Part shown: piece after piece, positions 56,763 to 61,966 of the stretch
Numbering within the stretch: position 1 is the first letter of the stretch
How the letters are laid out: each line of letters begins with the position of its first letter
Assembly: GCA_002840535.1 (NCBI GenBank)
Contig: PHBH01000029.1
Location: 1 to 64,000, forward strand
DNA from: Deltaproteobacteria bacterium HGW-Deltaproteobacteria-15
Lineage (GTDB): Bacteria > Desulfobacterota > DSM-4660 > Desulfatiglandales > HGW-15
Reading direction: 5' to 3'
Length of the DNA stretch: 64,000 nucleotides
Position numbers and translations under genes: made by a program
Notes under the pieces: generated by a model
The model's input: only the letters and a program-made list of their open reading frames with translations
Told to the model about the DNA's origin: nothing
The model's database searches: none

Positions 56763-59060
56763 TTAGCATCCTTCTTTCGGTGCCGCAGGAAAGTAGACAG
56801 TGAAAGAAGTTCCGCCTGAATCCCTGCAATCTTCCTTGTCCCCGCAGAATGTGCATCGGCTGATGGTGCCCGCGCAGTGATCGCCGTCGTTCGGCAGGTG
56901 GGAGCACCTTGATGAGGTCATGCCTATCCGGAAGCCATATCTTTCCGCAAAAATCTTCATGCGAAGGAGATCCGCGCCTTTGCCGCCTGCATTGAAGTCG
57001 AAAGGTCTTTTGGATGAGTAGGACATGGTCTCCTGAGTGGTGAAGAATCCCTCGAAAATGCGGCTCTGGTTCTCCTCTGTGATTCCGATGCCGCAATCGG
57101 TCACAACGAGTTCGGTGCCGCCGCCCTTTTTCTGCACGATAACCTCGATTTTCCCCTCATCGGGTGTCGCCTCCACCGCATTGCGAATCAGTCCGTCCAC
57201 AACCTTGCGGAGCACGTCCACGGGAACAGATACTACCTGCGCGGATTCGAGCCGGGTCTCGATGTTGACCTGTCGATGGTGAAACAAGGGTCGGAGAATC
57301 TCCAGCCGCTCCGCCACGAACTCTCTGAGCGGGACTTCCGAACTCCTGAGTTCTCGAGGACCGTAGATCTCCTGGATCCTCCCCCGGATGAATTCAACGA
57401 AGTCCCCTTCTCCCGTCTTTTCTGCTGCGAACGCCTCGATCTGATCTTCACACTGGCTCAGGAGATTGTTCAGGAGACCATAGCTCTTGTAAGACTTGCC
57501 CTCCATGATGTCTTCAGCCTGATACTGTATCCCCAGGATGCGATCGAGATTTCTTCGCGCCCTCTCGATTGTGGTTTTCCATTTTTCTTCCGGCAGCAAA
57601 GCCAGCTTTTTGGAGAGGATGTTCAGGGATGCCATCAGCACGGAAACAGGCGTCTTCAGTTCATGGCTGAGACGGTTGATCATCCTGTCTTTAGCCCTGT
57701 TCAGACTGCTCACTTCCTTGTAGGCTCTTTGAATCTCCCGGGAGAAGCGCGCGTTTTCAATGGAAGGGGCCACGGTTGCGGCGATCATGCTCAGGATCTC
57801 CACGTCATCCTGATCGAAAGCCCCCCCTTTCTTGTTGATGGCGCAAAGTACCCCCACGATTCGATCACCGCTTCTCATCGGAACATCCAGCATGGATCGC
57901 GACCGGTAGCCGAGACGCTGGTCGACCACCCGATAGAAGTCAGGGTCCTTGTAGGTGTCATGAACAATGACCGGTTCTCCTGTCTTGATCACCTTGCCTG
58001 AAACTCCCTTGTCCGCGGGATAACGGATCTCCTTGGCCCTTTGTTCGGTAGCCCGGTCATCATAGGCCGCCCCCAGAAAGAAGAGCTCGTTCTTCTCCCG
58101 GTCAAGGAGAATGACCAACGCCCCTTCCACGTCCAGCACTTTTCTGATCTCCTCGCTGACATAATCCAGCAGATCCTCGAGGTCAGGATATGCAGGGAGG
58201 GCGGTGCTGATGTGGAGCATGGCTTCGCTGATTCTGGCCTGTCTTTTTTCCTGGGAGATTTCACGCAGGAGCACGATCTCTCCGGCCGGCTCGGAACCCT
58301 GCTCTGTGAACAGGACACCTCGCATGAGAACGTCCACGGTCCGTCCGTCCTTGGTGAGCCTTCTGCTCTCATGGTGGAGGATCACCTTGTCCCGGATAAG
58401 CCTTTCGATGCTTTCTCGGGTCTCCTCCTCATGGTCGGCCGGGACATAAGGAATTCGCCTGCCGCGCAGTTCTTCGAGGGACCATCCGAAGATCTCGGTA
58501 AACGCAGGGTTCAGATAACTGACCGTGCCGTCCAGATTGAAGACGACCAGAGGATAGGGAAGGAAATCGAGAAGGGTCTTGTACCTCGTCTCAGCGAGGC
58601 GGCTTGCTTCGAGCGCCCTCTGAAGACGCAGCTCCGATTCTACAAGGGCCGATTGAGCCCTCGCTCTCTCGGTGACGTCTCTGGCAATTCCCCTGAATCC
58701 GACTTTCTCCCCGCCGGAATCGGTGATGAGGTTGGCAGAGAGCTCGACTGACCTGGGGTTGCCTTCCTTATCGATGGTCTCCCAAAGGAGATCGGATATT
58801 CCCCTGCCCGTGACATAGATCTGGTTGAAGATGTCGAATGCGGCTCGGGCTCTCTTCTCATCCATGAACTTGCTGAAGTTCTGCCCCTGGATATCTTCCC
58901 GAGGATAGCCGAAGACCTTGCATAGACTATTGTTGAAGTACGTGAAATTCCCCTGGAGGTCCACTTCATACACGCCGTCGTCGAGATTCTCGATGAAAGC
59001 CTTGTATCTTTCTTCCGATGACGCGAACGGTGGGCCGGCAATGTTTTTCTTTTTTGACAT
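56763..59060 (-). CDS. Sensor histidine kinase (PAS-PAS-GAF-HisKA-HATPase) with Cys-rich insert
   Basis: About 765 residues, cytoplasmic. Two PAS domains (about residues 15-130 and 150-270; YKAFIENLDDGVYEVDLQGN and LLDFLPYPLVVFNLDGTVSY), a GAF domain (about 285-440), HisKA with MINRLSHELKTPVSVLMASL and an ATPase domain (VVTDCGIGITEENQSRIFEG). Between the ATP lid and the end, CSHLPNDGDHCAG, CTFCGDKEDC form a five-Cys cluster that could bind metal or an Fe-S cluster, so the kinase may sense redox state. The start is uncertain: the ATG at 59060 begins the conserved part; the open frame extends to 59252 without a clear ribosome site. Confidence 0.87.
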   Translation of the reverse strand: MSKKKNIAGPPFASSEERYKAFIENLDDGVYEVDLQGNFTYFNNSLCKVFGYPREDIQGQNFSKFMDEKRARAAFDIFNQIYVTGRGISDLLWETIDKEGNPRSVELSANLITDSGGEKVGFRGIARDVTERARAQSALVESELRLQRALEASRLAETRYKTLLDFLPYPLVVFNLDGTVSYLNPAFTEIFGWSLEELRGRRIPYVPADHEEETRESIERLIRDKVILHHESRRLTKDGRTVDVLMRGVLFTEQGSEPAGEIVLLREISQEKRQARISEAMLHISTALPAYPDLEDLLDYVSEEIRKVLDVEGALVILLDREKNELFFLGAAYDDRATEQRAKEIRYPADKGVSGKVIKTGEPVIVHDTYKDPDFYRVVDQRLGYRSRSMLDVPMRSGDRIVGVLCAINKKGGAFDQDDVEILSMIAATVAPSIENARFSREIQRAYKEVSSLNRAKDRMINRLSHELKTPVSVLMASLNILSKKLALLPEEKWKTTIERARRNLDRILGIQYQAEDIMEGKSYKSYGLLNNLLSQCEDQIEAFAAEKTGEGDFVEFIRGRIQEIYGPRELRSSEVPLREFVAERLEILRPLFHHRQVNIETRLESAQVVSVPVDVLRKVVDGLIRNAVEATPDEGKIEVIVQKKGGGTELVVTDCGIGITEENQSRIFEGFFTTQETMSYSSKRPFDFNAGGKGADLLRMKIFAERYGFRIGMTSSRCSHLPNDGDHCAGTISRCTFCGDKEDCRDSGGTSFTVYFPAAPKEGC

Positions 59061-59430
59061 ACTGAGTGACGACAGGTCCTGCAAAAATTTATGATTTTTT
59101 TTCGTGCTCTTCGAGTCCTCCGTGTTGGAAACAAAGGGTTCTCGGAAGAGAGGGTCTATCCTGCCACGAAGCGTACGAAGGGGTGTATCATTTTCTTTGT
59201 TAGAAGTTCCGGTTCGGCCAACCGTGCCGCCCCGGCGGCTTACCAGTGACAAGGCACACTCTAACGGAAATCAGGTGCCTTTGCCATGACATTTTTGTTG
59301 TTATCCTCTTTGAGGCCATGCTATCAAGTGAGAGCCGTAGCATGGCTTGCAGGTTGGCCGGAACACGAGCCCCACTGTTTCGCCGATCGGCCGGCCATTG
59401 ACTGCCGAGTACTGCATGGGGAGGCACGGA
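59061..59430. other. Divergent intergenic region with a 9-base hairpin
   Basis: A 370-base gap between the kinase gene (minus) and the DUF1573 selenoprotein gene (plus), so it should hold both promoters. GCCATGCTA at 59315-59323 pairs exactly with TAGCATGGC at 59338-59346; this may be an operator or a small repeat. I see no further gene. Confidence 0.45.
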
Positions 59431-60129
59431 ATGAAGATTTGCAGGCTTGCTCTGGTTCTTGCAGCAGCCTTTCTCGTTCATCTCAACGCTGTTCCTGCAG
59501 CCTGTTCCGACAAGGTTTCAGGGCCGCTGATTCAGCTGAGTGAAAGAAACCACAACTTCGGGGAAGTGGATGAAGGCGCACTGCTCGAGCATACCTTTAA
59601 GGTGTTCAACCGCGGGGATCAACCCTTGCACATAGACAAGGTCAGTCCCTCGTGAGGGTGCGCGGTTGCCTCTTTCGATAAGAGCATCCTCCCCGGTGGG
59701 GAGGGCGGCATTACGCTGAAAGTCGACACGCGCGGTTATAGCGGCAGGGTTCATAAATCGGCGACAGTACATACCAACGATCCCAGGTCCAAGTCCAGCC
59801 TGATCGCTCTTGAGGCATTCATTCGTCCGCTCATCAGCATCACACCCACAGTGATTTATCTGGAGGGACAGCAGGATCAGGTCGTCAAGGGGAGCGTGGA
59901 AATAAAGGGTATGAAGGGGAGAGAACTCCGCCTGGAGCCTTCTCATTTCGATCTGCACAATAAGGTGGTCTATACGATTGAAGAGGTCGAGCCCGGAAAA
60001 AGGTATATAGTCCATTTTTCCAATGACCCGGGTCTGTCGGGCATCGCCTATGGGAATCTGAGGTTGAAAACAAACTATCCTGAAAAGCCCGAAGTGAGCA
60101 TTCGCATACGGTGCAAATTCGGATCGTAG
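59431..60129 (+). CDS. DUF1573 family selenoprotein, in-frame UGA read as selenocysteine
   Basis: A 232-residue exported protein with a TGA at 59653-59655. The N-terminus is a signal peptide (KICRLALVLAAAFLVHLNAV). The DUF1573 domain runs through the stop: ERNHNFGEVDEGALLEHTFK, VFNRGDQPLHIDKVSPS, then U-GCAVASFDKSILPGGEGG and on in the same frame to 60129. In DUF1573 proteins this place holds the conserved CGC motif, so Sec replaces the first Cys (UGC). The second half is a further beta-sandwich. GGGAGG precedes the ATG. A candidate SECIS hairpin follows the UGA. Standard annotation would split this gene in two. Confidence 0.85.
59664..59689 (+). promoter_or_regulatory. Candidate bacterial SECIS hairpin (DUF1573 gene)
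   Basis: GG-U-UG-C-CUCUU pairs with AAGAG-CA-U-CC with one bulged C and one U-U mismatch, leaving a UCGAU loop. The loop begins 20 bases after the UGA, within the range of bacterial SECIS elements, and contains a G. Confidence 0.55.
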
Positions 60130-60130
60130 A

Positions 60131-60333
60131 ATAGAGCGAACCGCGAAGGCGCAATGAACAAGAGTTGAACCGCGAAGGCGCAGTGACTGAAAAAGCTTTA
60201 AACCGCCAAGACGCCAAGTACGCCAAGAGAAACATTTGTCTTTTCATCTGCCGGAAGTCACTCCGGCAGATGAAATTACAAATTCTTGCGTTCTTCTTTG
60301 CGTCCTTCGCGCCTTGGCGGTTCGATTTATTCA
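60131..60333. repeat. Nested palindromic element with GAACCGCGAAGGCGCA arms
   Basis: The left arm is duplicated (GAACCGCGAAGGCGCA at 60138-60153 and 60167-60182). CCGCCAAGACGCC...CGCCAAGAG and TTCGCGCCTTGGCGGTTCG are the outer pair. The inner hairpin has 14-base arms (TTTCATCTGCCGGA at 60242-60255 and complement at 60262-60275), with the same CTGCCGGA core as the element at 12129. It lies between the selenoprotein gene and rnhA. Confidence 0.82.
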
Positions 60334-60384
60334 ATTCTCGGCGACTCGGATGCTCGCTGTTTTTTTGCACGGAGAGTGAAACGC

Positions 60385-60849
60385 GTGGTTAAGCTCGTGG
60401 AAATTTTTGCCGATGGTGCCTGCAGCGGTAACCCGGGTCCGGGAGGCTATGGCGCCATCCTCAGGTACGGGGAAAGGGTGAAAGAGATTTCAGGATGCGA
60501 GTTGAAGACCACCAACAACCGAATGGAATTGAGGGCGGTCATCGAAGCCCTCAAATTGATTAAGCGGCCGAGCAGAATCAGGGTCTCTACCGATTCGACA
60601 TATCTGGTCAAGGGGATGTCCGAATGGGTTCCCCAATGGATCAGGAAAAACTGGATCGGCTCCAGCAAGAAACCGGTTCTGAATCGTGAACTCTGGGAGA
60701 CTCTCATTGAATTGAGCCGTCCTCATGTGGTGGAGTGGCAGTGGATCAGGGGGCATGCAGGACACAAGGAAAATGAACGGTGCGACCAGCTTGCAAGGGC
60801 GGCTATTCTCAAATGCCTGGAGGAGGCGGCAAAGGGGAATCGGGACTGA
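60385..60849 (+). CDS. rnhA: Ribonuclease HI
   Basis: A 154-residue enzyme of normal length. The four catalytic acids are present: Asp in [16 protein letters not shown], Glu in [13 protein letters not shown], Asp in [11 protein letters not shown] and Asp in [11 protein letters not shown]. It cuts the RNA strand of RNA-DNA hybrids. The start is a GTG at 60385 with GGAG ten bases upstream; there is no suitable ATG, and the longer open frame runs back through the palindromic element. It is followed by the acidic zinc-ribbon gene after 121 bases. Confidence 0.93.
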
Positions 60850-60970: not shown

Positions 60971-61966
60971 ATGAAATGCCCGAAGTGCAATTACATCAGT
61001 TTCGATTACAATCAGGCATGCCCTAAATGTCATAAGGACCTCGGTCTTGAACAGGAGAAACTGAACATCCCCGCATTCAAACCCGAGCCCCCTTCGCTTT
61101 TAGGCGGTCTCCTAGGAGATCAGGTTCAACCGGACCACGCTTTGAGCGGCCAGGCGCAGGCAGATCACCAGCCGCGTTCGCTGGATGAAGCCACGGTCCA
61201 GTTGAACGAGCCCTTTCTTGACGACTCACAGGAAATCGACCTTGGTCCCGACCTTCAGGAAGAGAAGGAGGATCTCGGACTCGATGGTATCGCTGAAGAG
61301 CCTGTGCAGGGAATCGAAATGAGACCCATGGGGGGAACTGCGGCTGAACAGGAATCGGTTCCGCTGGAGGAGCCCGGGATCGAGGGCACCATCTCCCTTG
61401 CAGACTCCGAGGTCTTTGCCGGTCAAGAACCGGAGAAAGAAGAACCGGCGGCAGAGATCTCCCTGGACCTGGAAGAGATCACGCTGGATTTCGATGAGCC
61501 CGCCGAAAAGAAACAGGAAGCCGGACAAGCGGATGAGGGCCTGGAGATCGATCTGGGCGATTTCTCTCTGGAGGATTCAGGAGCAGAGACATCGCAGGTA
61601 TCAGCCGGGGGAACGGGAGAGCAGATCTCCGATCGCGCTGCCGACTTGATAAAAGAGGAGAAGGATCCTAAATCAGGGACGGATGAAATTACACTGACCC
61701 TGGACGATCTCCAGGTGAACAATGAGACGGGTCAGTTGGAGATCGGAAAGTTCATTCCCGGCATTTCCGGAAAGAGGGGGCCGGTCAAGACGGTGGACTT
61801 GAACCCTGATCAGACAAAGCCATCTGGCGCAGAGCAGGAAGACGAGTTGAGCCTGCTGCTTGGCGATGATGCAATCGAAGCTCCGGCTGCTTCCGAAGGT
61901 GTGGAGAGCCTGGATCTCGAGAACCTGGACCTTGAGCTGGACCTCGAAGGCCCGGAGCGCAAATAG
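60971..61966 (+). CDS. Acidic protein with N-terminal zinc ribbon, function unknown
   Basis: A 331-residue protein. C3, C6, C17 and C20 (MKCPKCNYISFDYNQACPKC) form a zinc ribbon. The rest is strongly acidic and low in aromatic residues, with repeated short Asp/Glu/Leu motifs such as ISLDLEEITLDFDEPAEKK and the closing LDLENLDLELDLEGPE. There are no membrane segments. The composition suggests a mostly unfolded regulator or scaffold that docks by short linear motifs. AGGAGAAGG lies just before the ATG. I do not recognise a named family beyond the zinc ribbon. It precedes the tRNA gene. Confidence 0.75.
   Translation: MKCPKCNYISFDYNQACPKCHKDLGLEQEKLNIPAFKPEPPSLLGGLLGDQVQPDHALSGQAQADHQPRSLDEATVQLNEPFLDDSQEIDLGPDLQEEKEDLGLDGIAEEPVQGIEMRPMGGTAAEQESVPLEEPGIEGTISLADSEVFAGQEPEKEEPAAEISLDLEEITLDFDEPAEKKQEAGQADEGLEIDLGDFSLEDSGAETSQVSAGGTGEQISDRAADLIKEEKDPKSGTDEITLTLDDLQVNNETGQLEIGKFIPGISGKRGPVKTVDLNPDQTKPSGAEQEDELSLLLGDDAIEAPAASEGVESLDLENLDLELDLEGPERK

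Follow-up and report, generated by a model that had tools for sequence, protein, structure and literature searches.

The question raised by this locus is whether the UGA codon at positions 59653-59655 ends a short protein or is decoded as selenocysteine (Sec) within a longer, exported one. The window, that is, the whole stretch of 64,000 nucleotides that was analysed, carries on its forward strand a reading frame at 59431-60129, whose ATG is preceded at a distance of 6 nt by GGGGAGG (59418-59424, forward strand), which on reading the sequence resembles a ribosome-binding site. Translated with TGA as U, the frame gives a protein of 232 aa with Sec as residue 75, and it ends in a TAG stop (60127-60129); the TGA is the sole in-frame stop before this TAG. 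A first-pass annotation of the DNA had described this frame, with the TGA as codon 75, a UGC motif and the TAG stop, and had claimed a signal peptide. Sequence and translation bear out both the frame and a signal-peptide-like N-terminus without a lipobox (residues 1-23; 59431-59499, forward strand), which has a charged start and, in an AlphaFold2 model, a hydrophobic helix at residues 4-19. A lipobox-like pattern within the first 60 residues occurs in one of 76 homologues. The protein matches PF07610 (DUF1573) over residues 34-124 (E 2.7e-21; 75.9 bits against a gathering cut-off of 26.1) and NF041425, the "OS_HP2 family (seleno)protein", over residues 37-130 (103 bits against a curated cut-off of 100); Pfam additionally matches it to the HYDIN/CFA65/VesB-like family.

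On its own, an open frame past a TGA says little, because 18 of the 2379 TGAs on both strands of the window are comparably framed, with at least 157 open codons after them and 74 before. It is the homologue column that decides the Sec reading. A protein search of genomes of the class gave matches in 68 of 85 genomes, and in 67 of these 68, by a hand count from the match table, at least one match has a single in-frame TGA (G019 is the exception). Named contigs, 30 automatic loci and 40 further regions supplied 76 distinct proteins covering the site; they are a subset of all matches, and seven distinct alignments, C-terminal or partial ones without the U column, were set aside beforehand. U75 aligns to the first Cys of the conserved DUF1573 C-G-C motif, and the column is occupied by TGA in 68 homologues, by a Cys codon in eight and by nothing else, so that the related genomes agree with the assignment made at first pass. 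The third place of the motif (the TGC codon at 59659-59661 on the forward strand, encoding C77, the second half of the U-G-C pair) is Cys in all 76, and the middle place is Gly in 70. The 68 homologues with one TGA at this column have no other in-frame stop, and their residues are conserved to the C-terminus. In a sample of the phylum (118 genomes, 50 of them with DUF1573; 30 loci read, of which L139 and L157 duplicate genes of the first set), the motif is present in 32 of 32 DUF1573 frames, with TGA in 10 and Cys in 22 at the first place. A tree of the 76 homologues requires at least five changes between U and C, as expected of an exchangeable redox Cys/Sec. Neither a Cys-free DUF1573 column nor an end of the protein at 59655, either of which would have contradicted the first-pass reading, was found by sequence.

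The same genome encodes the machinery for Sec: tRNA-Sec with the anticodon UCA, SelB (391 bits), SelA (619 bits) and SelD (378 bits). SelA was found in 73 of the 85 class genomes and in 61 of the 67 that have the UGA form; the other six (G009, G017, G020, G037, G053 and G062) are drafts with a completeness of 63-92%. The SelD gene of this genome (L126, C54:12650-13570) itself matches with one in-frame TGA, and its product is, from the sequence, probably a selenoprotein.

The hairpin that had been noted at 59664-59689 (forward strand) was reproduced in its exact extent by a 30-nt fold with nine pairs, the loop UCGAU and -8.3 kcal/mol. It is a probable bacterial SECIS element, constrained beyond the codons (z -4.03 against 1000 synonymous-codon shuffles, p 0.001). 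According to the bSECIS rule, the apical loop lies 16-37 nt after the UGA and has a G within its first two positions; here 19 nt separate the UGA from the loop, and the loop G is at the third position, a departure from the rule. As a folding control, random synonymous-codon versions of each gene were folded in sliding 30-nt windows. Between +9 and +38 after the UGA the mean z was -1.74 for the 68 Sec genes versus -0.38 for the eight Cys genes, and it was about 0 across most of the gene. With 1000 shuffles per gene, the mean z over the 68 Sec genes was -1.71, with p<0.05 in 32 and p<0.2 in 51 of them; these genes are related, and independent cases are fewer than 68. One of the eight Cys genes (L079, p 0.02) reached p<0.05, the Cys set labelled "C 7" in this summary comprising eight rows because a single key covers both Cys rows of L081. 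In a gapless DNA alignment of 66 Sec genes, which omits L085 and L091 for a length difference at the hairpin region, the pairs of a six-pair stem are preserved in 83.9% of cells, versus 31.7-46.6% in slid controls. Covariation at fixed columns was positive but modest, the score being matched in 3 of 500 shuffles and the pairs with change on both sides in 80 of 500; on our reading this is partly due to a shift of the stem by one or two positions from gene to gene. Dinucleotide shuffles of the 57-nt stretch after the UGA, which lack codon control, gave nothing unusual (z -0.15); since the signal shows only under codon control, this test was replaced by the synonymous shuffles of 30-nt windows. 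A search of the genome with Rfam RF00031 (SECIS_1) gave no match, as did its controls, and is hence uninformative. A second, GC-rich hairpin lies at +30 to +59 after the UGA (59683-59712 in the window), over P-P-G-G codons, with a mean z of -1.39 in the Sec genes versus 0.26 in the Cys genes.

Two other readings of the codon have to be weighed against this evidence. If the UGA were a genuine stop, the locus would encode a 74-residue protein or be a decaying gene. TGA does serve as an ordinary stop codon in this genome, for instance at the end of rnhA, and the frame signal is not rare in the window, but 68 of 76 homologues with TGA at one column, free of other in-frame stops and conserved at the C-terminus, together with a hairpin constrained beyond its codons, make this reading very unlikely on the alignment. 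Alternatively, a near-cognate tRNA could read the UGA through as Trp, Arg or Cys without selenium, as low selenium could permit; against this stand Cys as the sole replacement of UGA (8 of 8 homologues and 22 of 22 frames of the phylum sample), the complete Sec machinery and the hairpin constraint in the Sec genes, and we give it very little credence. The U/C column, the machinery and the constrained hairpin together lead to a selenoprotein: with a confidence close to certainty, the gene at 59431-60129 encodes an OS_HP2 protein, predicted to be exported, in which SelB and tRNA-Sec would decode UGA-59653 as Sec, aided by the hairpin at 59664-59689. The first-pass claim of an exported DUF1573 protein with Sec at the first Cys of its CGC motif is thus supported by the homologues, the machinery and the selected hairpin.

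The AlphaFold2 model, which took 60 of the 76 homologue sequences as input, consists of an N-terminal helix followed by two all-strand domains (mean pLDDT 94.2, pTM 0.77). The first predicted immunoglobulin-like domain (residues 34-132; 59530-59826, forward strand) holds the U-G-C turn, in which U75 follows strand 66-73 and precedes strand 78-82, and the second (residues 135-231; 59833-60123, forward strand) resembles an SbsC domain (Z 10.0). The closest solved folds are likewise immunoglobulin-like: VesB matches the first domain with Z 12.1 and an rmsd of 1.9 over 96 residues, and pilus chaperones reach Z 8-9. A sequence search of solved structures gave nothing meaningful for the window protein or a second query, and another DUF1573 protein matches 2qsv weakly by sequence (E 0.039). 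Immunoglobulin-like folds of the PapD/HYDIN type are mostly binding scaffolds, a point against a redox relay, and as modelled here this is an unusual scaffold for Sec; a shared fold reveals no function.

In the window the gene order is a PAS-domain sensor histidine kinase gene (56763-59252, reverse strand; labelled by reading its sequence), the OS_HP2 gene, rnhA for ribonuclease HI (60286-60849, forward strand; NF001236, 214 bits) and, further downstream, a gene for a zinc-ribbon protein (60971-61966, forward strand); rex is absent and no redox gene directly adjoins. Neighbours were counted over the 76 loci, 66 of which extend for 800 nt or more on either side of the gene. The divergent PAS kinase gene precedes OS_HP2 on the other strand in 19 loci, rnhA follows it on its own strand in 26, the zinc-ribbon gene is present in 22, and a flavin-reductase-like gene lies downstream in 13. 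The gene for Rex (282 bits in a homologue neighbourhood) precedes OS_HP2 on the same strand in 19 loci and accompanies rnhA in 16; no Rex over the cut-off was found in the window's own genome, though rex stands directly 5' of OS_HP2 in those 19 related loci. The rnhA/rex group makes up 29 of the 76 tree rows. The tree places the window copy only weakly (end branch 1.26, no starred set), so its assignment to this group is by gene order. In the interval between OS_HP2 and rnhA, at 60138-60322, there are three 20-nt direct repeats (GAACCGCGAAGGCGC type) and a 33-nt inverted repeat with an inner 22-nt inverted repeat; a REP-like insert may explain why this gap is wider than in many relatives.

A second group of 14 loci has zero overlap with the rnhA/rex group. 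Each of its loci has one or more of the following neighbours: Acr3 (TIGR00832, 372 and 458 bits) in eight loci, an Fe-S protein in six, a CDF exporter and a rhodanese in five each, a SurA-like/thioredoxin protein in four, and a DsbD/CcdA-like protein (DsbD_TM), an ArsR-like regulator and a permease in three each, the CDF, ArsR and permease labels coming from sequence reading rather than profile matches. MauE/DoxX follows the rhodanese in L033 and L116. On the tree, loci of one neighbourhood group tend to fall together (14 changes, compared with a mean of 33.1 after shuffling) but do not form clean clades. The window's own genome has a second UGA-bearing OS_HP2 copy (C3:41216-41848, in L077, C3:36216-46848), which belongs to this ars-type set, adjoins Acr3 (458 bits) and scores 98.4 bits against NF041425, just below the cut-off of 100; the genome thus holds one OS_HP2 copy of each neighbourhood group. 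Variants of the protein were also seen: six loci (L032, L036, L038, L040, L074 and L109) have a longer OS_HP2 of 340-397 residues between stops, whose C-terminal domain (query residues ~102-230) matches again nearby, L040 being the copy of the culturable relative NaphS2, and in L092, L094 and L095 U-S-C replaces U-G-C, next to genes labelled by sequence reading as a TetR-like regulator and an AMP-binding enzyme.

These contexts suggest what the protein may do. The signal peptide is predicted to route it across the inner membrane, outside which it would fold into the two immunoglobulin-like domains and display Sec75-Gly-Cys77 in a turn that joins two strands of the first. Its most likely role is that of an extracytoplasmic selenol-thiol pair, acting in a redox relay or in metal(loid) binding, and that the selenol is a reactive form, as had been proposed, is plausible. 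Thiol redox is favoured by the DsbD/CcdA-like, thioredoxin and rhodanese neighbours, metalloid handling by Acr3 and CDF, and redox-dependent expression by Rex. If the pair is a redox couple, selenol and thiol would cycle between a reduced and a selenenylsulfide state within an extracytoplasmic relay, which in the ars-operon group might be fed by the DsbD/CcdA-like and thioredoxin neighbours. This function is a separate matter from the near-certain Sec assignment; it is drawn wholly from the neighbours of homologues, and we hold it possible at somewhat less than an even chance. U-G-C could instead be a ligand site, a periplasmic selenolate-thiolate trap that captures arsenite or soft metal ions near the Acr3 or CDF exporter, the trapped ions being passed on to the exporter or the envelope being protected. 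C-x-C pairs commonly bind soft metals, and both the Acr3 and CDF neighbours (8 and 5 of 76 loci) and the Acr3-adjoining paralogue speak for such a site, but the larger rnhA/rex group (29 of 76) is free of metal-resistance clusters in the stretch read, and the U/C changes, at least five, are also expected for redox; we keep the trap as a tentative option. Returning to the selenol-thiol pair as such, a broader and rather doubtful proposal is that OS_HP2 forms a class of such pairs, built on an immunoglobulin-like scaffold and since divided between two functions. One would be Rex-linked (rex - OS_HP2 - rnhA) and might respond to the NADH state of the cell, and the other, as part of the same doubtful proposal, arsenite-linked, with Acr3, DsbD/CcdA-like, thioredoxin, rhodanese and MauE partners. 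If true, OS_HP2 would provide a periplasmic relay, for redox or for metalloids, that is based on selenium and does without a thioredoxin fold.

The novelty implied at first pass does not stand, for DUF1573 selenoproteins with UGC are already on record as OS_HP2 (NF041425). A table in PMC2398784 lists OS_HP2 (pfam07610, UxC) in a row reading 2, 2, 354, in which Sec sequences presumably come first and Cys homologues last, and passages of two reviews (PMC9312934, PMC13188914) name a "DUF1573 domain-containing protein" with UGC and credit it to Zhang and Gladyshev 2007. OS_HP2 has thus been on selenoprotein lists since 2007, and a limited search of titles, abstract openings and passages found no report of its function, its rex context or its ars context; within that search, the rex/rnhA and arsenite-efflux contexts look unreported. 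These conserved neighbourhoods give OS_HP2 testable claims, namely control by Rex and a role connected with arsenite or with thiol redox; the fold, as predicted, sets Sec on an immunoglobulin-like scaffold.

Among known systems, the HYDIN/ASH/PapD-like domains and P. gingivalis 2qsv are alike in fold: the HYDIN PapD-like domain 2e6j resembles the first domain with Z 10.2 and an rmsd of 3.2 over 104 residues, and 2qsv gives Z 10.4 over 192 with an rmsd of 12.1. Their identity to the window protein is 12-14%, and they are scaffolds, chaperones or proteins without an assigned function, whose titles name no Sec. The Cys-type DUF1573 proteins (PF07610; the eight Cys forms, L078-L084) share family and motif; they differ in having C-x-C for U-G-C and no Sec, and as a group they give no clear sign of a constrained hairpin behind the codon, L079 notwithstanding. 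In domain, motif and Sec position the OS_HP2 family (NF041425) is the same as the window protein. There is no defining difference; what is undescribed in the portions of PMC9312934, PMC13188914 and PMC2398784 consulted is the conserved rex/rnhA neighbourhood in which the window copy and its relatives are found. Taken singly, the gene at 59431-60129 is a confirmed yet ordinary OS_HP2 protein, and a solid additional member of a recorded selenoprotein family.
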